From Candidatus Nitrosopumilus salarius BD31 (GTDB lineage: Archaea > Thermoproteota > Nitrososphaeria > Nitrososphaerales > Nitrosopumilaceae), in NCBI RefSeq assembly GCF_000242875.2, contig NZ_AEXL02000062.1, forward strand, positions 1-32,680: a DNA stretch of 32,680 nt, in the 5' to 3' direction. Made by a program: the position numbers and the translations under genes. This document shows, in pieces, positions 3,192 to 13,354 of the stretch; position 1 is the first letter of the stretch, and the number at the start of each line of letters is the position of its first letter. The notes below the pieces were generated by a model, which saw only the letters and a program-made list of their open reading frames with translations, was not told the DNA's origin and searched no databases.

Positions 3192-3869
3192 TTGCAAAAT
3201 TGGATTTTTGATATCAGGTCGCGTTCTTTTGTTTTACTGACAATCCTGTTTCTCGTCTTAACGGCATTTGTTTACTTTGGACTCACTGAAAGTTTTGATC
3301 AAAGTGTCATTTTGTTTTTCTCACAAAATGTTGGAGATTCCTCACTTGATCTAATTATGCAATACGTCACAGAAAGTGGTGAGGTTCTGTGGATGTTGGG
3401 ATTTGGAATTTTAATGTTGATAATCCCAAAAACTCGAAGGGTTGGAATTACCTTGATGATATTGATTGTGATTTCTACATTGCTTACAGGATACATCAAA
3501 TGCGGTGTTGATAGGGATAGACCTGATTTTGATTATGAGGGTGCCCCATTTCCAGTACCAATAAGTAAAGATACTTTTGCCCTGTTCTGTGAGGGAGGAT
3601 ACAATGCATCATACCCATCTGGTCATGCTGCCAGGTCTATGATATTTGCAATAATCCTAGGTTATGCCCTCTCTGAGCGATTCCCAAGAGGTGCATATTT
3701 GTTATTTATTTATCCTGCAATGATATCTATTAGCAGAATCTATGTCTTACAACATTATCCAATGGATGTCATTGGAGGAATCGTAATTGGAATAATGCTT
3801 GCAGGTGTCATGGCAAAAAGAACTAAACTTTACAAAATTTTTGACAAATCAAAAACCCAGTTCAGTTAA
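3192..3869 (+). CDS. PAP2-family membrane phosphatase
   Basis: Membrane-bound acid phosphatase/lipid phosphatase of the PAP2 superfamily, 225 residues with about six hydrophobic segments. All three signature blocks are present: K-x6-RP (Lys103 to Arg110-Pro111), PSGH (142-145) and SR-x5-H-x3-D (Arg182, His188, Asp192). These form the phosphohistidine active site, facing outside in known members. Likely substrates are prenyl or phospholipid phosphates; the exact one is not visible. The start is a TTG preceded at good distance by GAGGT (3179-3183). Its last 21 bases overlap the end of the convergent gene. Confidence 0.9.
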   Translation: MQNWIFDIRSRSFVLLTILFLVLTAFVYFGLTESFDQSVILFFSQNVGDSSLDLIMQYVTESGEVLWMLGFGILMLIIPKTRRVGITLMILIVISTLLTGYIKCGVDRDRPDFDYEGAPFPVPISKDTFALFCEGGYNASYPSGHAARSMIFAIILGYALSERFPRGAYLLFIYPAMISISRIYVLQHYPMDVIGGIVIGIMLAGVMAKRTKLYKIFDKSKTQFS

Positions 3870-4160
3870 TGCGTCACTGCTAATCAAAACTATTGCATAA
3901 TGATCATCATCGTGGTGGTATGTCCAATATCGTATGTCTGGAATTTCTTTTTTTTGTTTAAGTCCATGTGTTACCCCCGTTGTCACCGTATATCCTATTC
4001 TTTTTGCAGTCTTTGATTCCTTTGGAAATAACACTTTGAATCCTTCATTTTTATCTCTAAACCCTAGTTTTACCATGTCATCTACCGCATCGGATGCATC
4101 TTTTTCATCTTTTAGATCGTACGTCTTTGATATTGGTAAATCATTAGGATGAAAATCCAT
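3849..4160 (-). CDS. Conserved small protein of unknown function
   Basis: 103 residues, acidic-basic mixed, no membrane segment and no motif I recognise. It opens with MDFHPNDLPISKTYDL and has a His/Asp-rich stretch near residues 79-88 (YHHDDDHYAI) that could bind metal, which is speculation. A TATA-like TATTAGATAAG lies about 30 bases before the ATG. The convergent overlap with the PAP2 gene (21 bases) argues the frame is genuine only weakly; the codon use and a normal ATG start support it better. Confidence 0.65.
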   Translation of the reverse strand: MDFHPNDLPISKTYDLKDEKDASDAVDDMVKLGFRDKNEGFKVLFPKESKTAKRIGYTVTTGVTHGLKQKKEIPDIRYWTYHHDDDHYAIVLISSDALTELGF

Positions 4161-4298
4161 TAAATATGATGTGTTCTCTTATCTAATATTTTTTAAAAAA
4201 CTGATTTTTGCGATCAATGTTAGTTAATTTTCTTTACCGCTAAGTCAAATCCTGAACATATTAACAACTTAACCGAGTCTTTTCTCTTGATTGTAACA

Positions 4299-4943
4299 TT
4301 GGCATCTCTAGAAAAATTGGTAATTCAATTACGTAAAAAGAAACAAGAAGCAACAAAGCTAAGGGCAAAAGCTGAAGAAGAACTAAAAAAATATCGATCT
4401 GCTGAAAAGCGTTCAGCATCTGGAATCGTGTCAATTGAGAAAAAAATAGATTCTGAAAAAGAGAACGTATCTGATGTTTCCTCTGTCCTTAACCAAAAAA
4501 CATCCCAATTGGAAAGTATTGGAAGACTGGTGGCAACAGCAGAAGAACGTCTTACTAGGGAAAGAGAAGCCATTGAGAATGCTCAGCAAGAAATTGAGTT
4601 CGCTGAAAATCCTGAAGAAAAACAAAATGCCGAGGCTAGGTTACGTTCGTTATCTGACCGTATTGAAGAACTAGTCTCTGAAATCAAAAACAGGCAAAAA
4701 ACTGCTAAAAAGATTACAGATGAAATAGCAAATTTTTCCACTATGAAATCAAAAATCACTTCAACTATTCAAAAACAATCCAAATCAAAACCCACTTTAC
4801 GTGAAGCAATGGTTACTAGCCGCAAGTCTGCAGAAAAACTTGTCAAGGAATTGGAGAGGCGAATCAAAGCAGAAGAATCTGCTAAAAACGCATTAGATAA
4901 GGTATCTTCAAAAATTAGGAGAATATTTGGCAAAGAAACGTAA
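4299..4943 (+). CDS. Coiled-coil protein coupled to a lysine-rich DNA-binding-like protein
   Basis: About 214 residues of nearly uninterrupted charged heptads (Lys/Glu/Ala/Arg rich), with two long helical blocks separated near residues 110-125. No signal peptide or membrane segment. The start is uncertain: a TTG at 4287 would add four hydrophobic residues, while TTG at 4299 gives MASLEKLVIQLRKKK, which I prefer. The stop lies inside the following lysine-rich gene (17-base overlap in a different frame), so the two are translationally coupled and probably act together. A structural or chromatin-associated role is inference from that neighbour. Confidence 0.75.
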   Translation: MASLEKLVIQLRKKKQEATKLRAKAEEELKKYRSAEKRSASGIVSIEKKIDSEKENVSDVSSVLNQKTSQLESIGRLVATAEERLTREREAIENAQQEIEFAENPEEKQNAEARLRSLSDRIEELVSEIKNRQKTAKKITDEIANFSTMKSKITSTIQKQSKSKPTLREAMVTSRKSAEKLVKELERRIKAEESAKNALDKVSSKIRRIFGKET

Positions 4944-5121
4944 ATCTGCCAAAAAGAAACCATCTAAAAGAAAACCATCTAAAAAGACTGCAGCTAAAAG
5001 AAAACCATCTAAAAAGACTGCAGCTAAAAGAAAACCATCTAAAAAGACTGCAGCTAAAAGAAAACCATCTAAAAAGACTGCAGCTAAAAGAAAACCAGCT
5101 AAAAAGAAATCTAGACGATAA
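4927..5121 (+). CDS. Lysine-rich histone-H1-like repeat protein
   Basis: 64 residues, mostly Lys/Arg/Ala/Pro/Ser/Thr, with four identical decapeptides KRKPSKKTAA (residues 14-53) and a fifth partial copy. The composition resembles the tails of histone H1 and of bacterial H1-like proteins that bind DNA through charge. There are no acidic residues at all. It starts at TTG within the end of the coiled-coil gene, overlapping it by 17 bases. It is probably a nucleoid protein or the basic partner of the coiled-coil protein; homology is hard to prove because the sequence is of low complexity. Confidence 0.8.
   Translation: MAKKRKSAKKKPSKRKPSKKTAAKRKPSKKTAAKRKPSKKTAAKRKPSKKTAAKRKPAKKKSRR
4966..5096 (+). 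repeat. Perfect 30-bp tandem repeat inside the lysine-rich gene
   Basis: Four copies of a 30-base unit at 4966-4995, 4996-5025, 5026-5055 and 5056-5085 are identical at DNA level, including third positions, followed by a partial copy to about 5096. One unit encodes exactly ten codons, so copy-number changes keep the frame. Identity at silent positions points to recent duplication or ongoing slippage/recombination. Confidence 0.97.
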
Positions 5122-5180: not shown

Positions 5181-5786
5181 ATGATGAATAAAAGAGGTCC
5201 AATAATTTCCCTCGCTGGTATGGTTCTAATTGGAATTTCACTTCTAGTTGCTGCTTCGTCCATTCCATCCGGTATTGCTAAATCTGATAATTTTTCAGTT
5301 CCATTATTGTTTGAAGGGATGTTTGATGAGGTTTCAGATGAAGTTGAAATCCTGCCTGGTAGTTCAGCGTATGTTTCTTACAGTGTTTCTTCATCTAATA
5401 TTCCACTTCTATGGGGAATTCAAATAATTAATTATCAATCTGGAGATAAATTGTCTATTAAAATTTCTAATATTTTTGGTGATGATTATGGAGAGTTTGT
5501 TCAAGATGAACCAATTTTATTTGAAGTGTTGGAAATCACAAAATCTGATACGTTAAATTTTGAAATTCAAAATCCTGGAACTGAAACTGTAAATGTCGTT
5601 ACAATGTTTTCGGAAGATCCTGAAAACTCTGACGCTCTTTCAAACCCAAATTCCCCTGTGATGAATATGGTTTTTCCTCTCATTGTTTCCGGAATTTTGA
5701 TTATATTGGGAATTGTTATGTTGATAGTTGGCATCTTGGTAATGTTTGTAGATTGGAAAAACTATCAAAATAAAAGAAATTATTGA
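5181..5786 (+). CDS. Membrane-anchored extracellular protein, function unknown
   Basis: 201 residues with a hydrophobic N-terminal segment (about 9-31, signal anchor or signal peptide), an extracellular beta-rich middle (about 40-155) and a C-terminal membrane helix (about 163-190) followed by a short basic tail (DWKNYQNKRNY). The architecture suggests a cell-envelope protein. I do not recognise a family. Two ATGs in tandem at 5181 and 5184 make the exact start ambiguous by one residue. It is monocistronic, ending 18 bases before the end of the convergent SSB gene. Confidence 0.75.
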   Translation: MMNKRGPIISLAGMVLIGISLLVAASSIPSGIAKSDNFSVPLLFEGMFDEVSDEVEILPGSSAYVSYSVSSSNIPLLWGIQIINYQSGDKLSIKISNIFGDDYGEFVQDEPILFEVLEITKSDTLNFEIQNPGTETVNVVTMFSEDPENSDALSNPNSPVMNMVFPLIVSGILIILGIVMLIVGILVMFVDWKNYQNKRNY

Positions 5787-12214: not shown

Positions 12215-13354
12215 ATGTTGGATGTCAATTCTTCACGATATTTGGTTTTGCTGCTTCTGGTGGGATTTTTGTTTCCAGTAATTTACGCACAGACTTCTGA
12301 TGACATTTCAACCTTATTTCAAAACGCAAAAAATTTAATCAAAGACAAACAGTATGAAATAGCAATTAACGAGTTGAATAAAATTTTAGAAATTGATCCC
12401 AATAATTTAGATGCCTTAAATGAAAAAGGCTCAATTCGTTTGACTCAGGGAAAATATGTCAAGGCACAGCAAAATTTTGAAAAGTCAGTAGGATTGAATC
12501 CTAAAAATATTTCTGGATTGAATGGATTAGGAACCTCCCTTTACTATCTTGACAGATATGATGATGCTTTGGATGTCTTTGATTATGTTTTACAACTTGA
12601 TGTGCACAATATTGATGCTTTGATTGGAAGTGGAAACGTTTTGGTAAAAAGACAGCAATATGATGATGCCCTATTGTTTTTTAATATTGCACTGGAACAA
12701 AAACCTGATTATATTCCCGCATTACTTGCAAAAGCATATGCTCTTTCTAACATTAATCAAAATAGTGATGCGATACTTATCTTTGATCACATACTTCAAA
12801 TTGATTTAGATAATGCTATGGCATTAAATGGAAAGGGACAGGTGTATTTAGAGTTAGAAGAATACACTTTTTCTAAAGATGCTTTTACTGATGTTTTAGA
12901 TGTAGATCCAAATAATATTCTGGCGTTATTGGGTATGGCCGAATTAAATTTTCTTGAAGATAAGAATATCAAATCTGATCAACTTTATGATAAGGTGTTA
13001 TCTATGGATCCTGATAATGTCGATGCTTTACTTGGGAAAGCGAATAATCAGGAACGCCTTGGACATTTGGATGATTCTTTAAAATACTTTGATGAGGCTT
13101 TAGAGGTAGATCCTGATAATTTAGAAGCTGCAAATGGCAGAGACAATGTTCTAAAAAATGAAGTCAATACGTCACTTGACTTAATTTTGCTCATCACAAT
13201 AATTGGAAGTGTCACTTCAGTTGTTTCTTTTATTGTAATGCTTATCAAAATTAAAGAAAATGCTCGTCTAAAGGATAAGGTGACTATTGCAGATGAGCAG
13301 ATTGAGGAACTTGTTGACAAGTTTATGAAAAGTTCTGAAAAATCTAAGAAATAA
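12215..13354 (+). CDS. Secreted/membrane-anchored TPR protein
   Basis: From the ATG at 12215 the product has a signal sequence (LLLLVGFLFPVIYAQ), about eight tetratricopeptide repeats, one membrane helix (LILLITIIGSVTSVVSFIV) and a charged cytoplasmic coiled tail. The repeats show the W/LxxLGxxYxxxxxYxxAxxxFxxALxxxPxN pattern with DPNN/DPDN turns. A TTG at 12164 would add 17 residues before the signal sequence and is unlikely. TTTATAG near 12177 may be its TATA box. The likely role is an extracellular protein-interaction scaffold. Confidence 0.85.
   Translation: MLDVNSSRYLVLLLLVGFLFPVIYAQTSDDISTLFQNAKNLIKDKQYEIAINELNKILEIDPNNLDALNEKGSIRLTQGKYVKAQQNFEKSVGLNPKNISGLNGLGTSLYYLDRYDDALDVFDYVLQLDVHNIDALIGSGNVLVKRQQYDDALLFFNIALEQKPDYIPALLAKAYALSNINQNSDAILIFDHILQIDLDNAMALNGKGQVYLELEEYTFSKDAFTDVLDVDPNNILALLGMAELNFLEDKNIKSDQLYDKVLSMDPDNVDALLGKANNQERLGHLDDSLKYFDEALEVDPDNLEAANGRDNVLKNEVNTSLDLILLITIIGSVTSVVSFIVMLIKIKENARLKDKVTIADEQIEELVDKFMKSSEKSKK

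Follow-up and report, generated by a model that had tools for sequence, protein, structure and literature searches.

Comparison with related genomes indicates that positions 4299–5121 of the window (the whole 32,680-nt stretch of Candidatus Nitrosopumilus salarius BD31 analyzed here) are one gene, whose reading frame is broken in this assembly by a single extra base in a run of A residues. On balance, we favor the view that the intact gene encodes a nucleoid-associated protein that binds or compacts DNA and consists of a helical hairpin followed by a lysine/arginine-rich tail.

The interrupted reading frame

Read from the window DNA, an upstream open frame extends from TTG 4299 to TAA 4941–4943 and a second one from TTG 4927 to TAA 5119–5121. 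The initial annotation had correctly noted that these frames share 17 nt (4927–4943) and that the second encodes 64 residues, none of them aspartic or glutamic acid, with four KRKPSKKTAA units; the underlying tail DNA (4964–5107) is a 30-bp tandem repeat with 4.8 copies and 99% matches (TRF). The annotation had further proposed that the frames are two translationally coupled genes encoding a two-part nucleoid-binding system, and had conceded that a fusion might arise through a frameshift or readthrough.

The relatives do not bear out coupling. Seventy other distinct relatives have a complete frame, and in each of them coil and tail form one continuous ORF; the coil enters the lysine tail in-frame in every examined relative whose contig extends far enough, and none of those examined has the two as separate genes. 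The single proteins fusing coil and tail that the annotation had suggested searching for thus exist, fusion being the usual state and the split in the window the exception. In DNA alignments, including that with locus L100, five A residues in the window stand against four in relatives (TCTTC-AAAAA-TTAGG versus TCTT[C/T]-AAAA-TT; Table 1). Dropping one A yields an 822-nt ORF of 273 residues, in register with the relatives, which reads ...SSKLGEYLAKKRKSAKKKPSKRKPSKKTAA... across a junction that agrees with theirs. The final nine residues of the upstream frame are out-of-frame sequence, and TTG 4927 corresponds to the leucine codon within an LLAK, YLAK or FLAK motif of the relatives. Since coil and tail are one ORF in relatives, and the presumed second start is an internal codon there, we see neither translational coupling nor a two-part system.

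Table 1. Features in and around the coil-tail gene (window coordinates)
Feature	Position	Strand	Basis
Divergent 103-aa neighbor, position conserved	3849..4160	-	Synteny in most relatives
Upstream conserved region (TAAGTCAAATCCTGAACATATTAACAACTTAACCGAGTC...), presumed promoter/leader	4241..4298	+	Near-identity across loci
Coil-coding part, conserved frame, TTG start	4299..4913	+	Alignment with relatives
A5 run (A4 in relatives), frame-breaking extra base	4910..4914	+	DNA alignments
Out-of-frame end of upstream ORF (IRRIFGKET, stop), product of the shift	4914..4943	+	DNA alignment
Coil end and K/R tail in original frame (LGEYLAKKRKSAKKKPSKRKPSKKTAA..., stop)	4915..5121	+	Relatives' frame
TTG read as start of second gene; internal Leu in relatives	4927..4929	+	Alignments
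Predicted membrane protein downstream, in many but not all relatives	5181..5786	+	Synteny

Two separate coupled genes, encoding a rod and a basic peptide, would account for the overlap and for a Shine-Dalgarno-like AGGAG at 4917–4921, 5 nt ahead of TTG 4927, but neither AGGAG nor the frame break is conserved among aligned relatives, in which the overlap and the separate genes are likewise missing; given fusion in 70 of 70, we rejected this very improbable reading. A programmed +1 frameshift or slippage, producing both a short coil and the fused protein, might be suspected from the overlap of the frames around the A5 run. However, only the window has this arrangement, its run of A residues is short, and the aligned relatives have four A residues and a frame that is open without any shift, so that this reading, too, was rejected and appears scarcely credible.

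The extra A itself may be an assembly error or, as we tentatively regard as a serious possibility, a real and recent frameshift in this population, through which the fused protein was lost and a tail-less coil is made, the tail being translated, if at all, by re-initiation at TTG 4927, 5 nt after AGGAG. No other split gene was found when approximately 31 kb of this genome, most of it from the window, were compared with two close relatives, and the assembly is therefore not obviously error-ridden; moreover, an in-frame TAG within the coil of genome G123, which consists of one contig of 1,803,090 bp, indicates that the coil-tail gene carries lesions elsewhere too. Conversely, conservation as coding sequence in the original frame persists 3' of the extra A, which means that the base is either a very recent mutation or an error, and the lesion lies just before the repeat in which the contigs of many relatives end, a site prone to assembly trouble. 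If the broken state is real, which it could be, the fused protein is missing from this population. In either event, the case illustrates that one extra assembly base can pass for a new two-gene system. The G123 locus (L180; G123:C1:1350500-1353500, minus strand) reads SKIQ*QAKSKP where relatives read SKIQKQTKSKP, and its tail frame is open downstream.

Distribution, conservation and gene order

An initial search with the coil, covering the window's own genome and 40 relatives, gave matches in 22 genomes, all of one genus. A coil profile matched 211 of 250 Nitrosopumilaceae genomes, each of them once, covering 20 of the 22 genera, and 148 genomes of a class-wide sample of 300; among the matches listed for that sample, all are in the Nitrosopumilaceae. 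As the named relatives include both Nitrosopumilus and Nitrosarchaeum, the taxonomic family concerned is the Nitrosopumilaceae.

Among 106 distinct relatives, the coil most frequently starts with TTG (84), followed by ATG (15) and GTG (6). Its alignment spans 212 columns, and the intact rows show one internal gap, a single residue long (in L022); the rows for L019, L021 and the window are truncated and do not count as intact. Judging from substitution rates (dN 0.07–0.18, dS 0.52–1.34, dN/dS about 0.1–0.2), the coil is under purifying selection.

Gene order is kept across most loci: PGK, PAP2, the divergent 103-aa gene and the coil-tail gene, often followed by the membrane protein and an OB-fold gene. 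The 103-aa neighbor, which has no confident match in Pfam, lies 138 nt from the start of the coil gene. The roughly 60 nt ahead of that start are near-identical in most Nitrosopumilus and Nitrosarchaeum loci and include a TATA-like CATATTAA at 4257–4264; this stretch is presumably a promoter or leader. Elsewhere in the window, at 12278–13123, an internally repeated protein is suggested by matches of several G018 proteins to overlapping stretches that are shifted against one another.

The basic tail and the predicted hairpin

All 70 complete-frame relatives have a C-terminal extension, which lacks any acidic residue in 57 of them and has a median K+R content of 54%. Its length ranges from 12 to about 475 residues (median 61.5), although tail lengths taken from draft genomes, among them that of the window, may be underestimates, as many relatives' contigs stop inside the tail repeat; in L184, the tail is mostly N-masked. 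The tail usually consists of tandem repeats, with units of about ten residues in the window, and these units are similar within species and dissimilar between species. The longest extension, with TKAAPKRKRPSRKSSSK-type repeats over about 475 residues, belongs to a 680-aa version (L200, genome G081). A 566-aa version (L201, genome G045) has an extension of 364 residues, in which an acidic-containing segment of AAREEAARKKAE-type repeats comes first, followed by KKPAAKK repeats, with KKPAAK units broken by IFEDGDSMWINSY.

No free-standing tail gene was found among the tail matches that we inspected, which lay in coil ORFs, at contig ends or in a second protein with a short coil. The latter, of 132 aa, combines a short helical N-terminus (MSEANNDSFRSEIIAEIKRMQSELNQLKDIKKS) with KRKPARKTAAKKKVA repeats and occurs in four genomes, not including the window's own (L034, 1408–1806, as well as L213–L215 in G002, G009 and G010).

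The layout is a predicted helical hairpin of 212 residues followed by a predicted disordered K/R-rich tail. The initial annotation had envisaged a dimeric rod; the AlphaFold2 monomer model of the relative L005 looks hairpin-like instead, with helices at residues 3–101, 105–162 and 164–217, pLDDT values of at least 90 for 200 residues, and values below 50 in the tail. The model suggests that the coil is a long antiparallel hairpin, a geometry that would place the N-terminus and the tail near the same end. Its best Foldseek match is the coiled-coil hairpin of an SMC protein (5xg2, E 3e-3), and Foldseek returned no coiled-coil fold match at E 0.001 or below.

Proteins of similar layout and proposed role

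By sequence, no chain among solved structures matches the protein, and no curated family in Pfam or NCBIfam covers it; the NCBIfam SMC and H1-like models score far below their cut-offs, and no HbhA-named family is among the Pfam and NCBIfam matches at E ≤0.01. The Pfam model HC2 (PF07382; cut-off 40 bits) gives 14.6 bits for the window tail and 40.1 for one relative, the match being confined to the repeat tail. While the predicted hairpin resembles the arms of SMC and Rad50 proteins (5xg2), membership in that group was rejected, as there is neither an ATPase head nor a hinge, and the low-scoring similarity reflects coiled-coil composition only. Our literature search, with most subscription papers beyond its reach, found no account of this archaeal family, which is probably, judging by analogy, an undescribed DNA-packing protein.

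The closest parallels are bacterial. HbhA, a nucleoid-associated protein of Mycobacterium tuberculosis, likewise has a coiled coil and then a lysine-rich tail in one chain; its Lys/Ala/Pro tail is required for DNA binding and suffices for it, the binding shows no sequence preference, and HbhA bends and loops DNA (PMC10665949). The archaeal protein resembles it in layout. HbhA differs in having an N-proximal hydrophobic stretch and a coil of 81 residues, and in being also an adhesin, whereas the coil of the protein described here, from an archaeal host, has about 212 residues. AlgP of Pseudomonas aeruginosa shares an α-helical N-terminal domain and a long disordered KPAA-type tail with a variable number of repeats; its N-terminal part is shorter (124 aa), and AlgP associates with polyphosphate granules, whose spacing depends on the KPAA tail (PMC9239181). 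In the Chlamydia protein Hc2/HctB (PF07382), lysine-rich repeats similarly vary in number (PMC2848022), but Hc2 is without a 212-residue hairpin and only the low-complexity tail matches, mostly under the curated cut-off. Following HbhA and AlgP, an H1-like, DNA-binding reading of the lysine tail, as in the initial annotation, is plausible (PMC10665949, PMC9239181). Most likely, the coil-tail protein works like HbhA or AlgP, the likeness being one of layout.

The most likely function, by the same analogy, is non-specific DNA binding and compaction. The tail would bind DNA by charge, without sequence specificity, and possibly RNA or polyphosphate too, while the hairpin would space or oligomerize the tails. 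The intact protein may thereby coat, bridge or compact DNA as a nucleoid-associated protein, beside histone and Alba-domain proteins, for which this genome has one and two genes, respectively. As repeat units are gained or lost, tail length would drift and the basic character stay.

Tails rich in lysine have other ligands as well: RNA, ribosomes, membranes and polyphosphate. Given this promiscuity, and with AlgP residing on polyphosphate granules and requiring its KPAA tail for their spacing, the intact tail might instead mainly bind RNA, ribosomes or polyphosphate, or tether a granule to the nucleoid in the manner of AlgP or PhaF. We consider this rather unlikely: a granule-binding domain was not found, and nothing in the present analysis favors RNA or polyphosphate over DNA.

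The Nitrosopumilaceae are ammonia-oxidizing archaea, and such archaea are very abundant in the sea. In genome G125, which we take to be that of strain SCM1, the coil-tail ORF comprises 312 aa counted from TTG. Hocher et al. (2022, PMC7613761) reported that histone makes up less than 0.06% of the Nitrosopumilus maritimus proteome, which raises the question of what packs the chromosome of this species, and the candidate screen of that study was restricted to proteins of fewer than 290 aa (PMC7613761). A conserved, tail-bearing protein found family-wide is a direct candidate for this packing, and one that a 290-aa filter would miss. More speculatively, and with considerable doubt on our part, a Nitrosopumilaceae-specific chromatin protein, combining a hairpin with an H1-like tail of evolvable length, might be a main DNA compactor in marine ammonia-oxidizing archaea, where histone is scarce.
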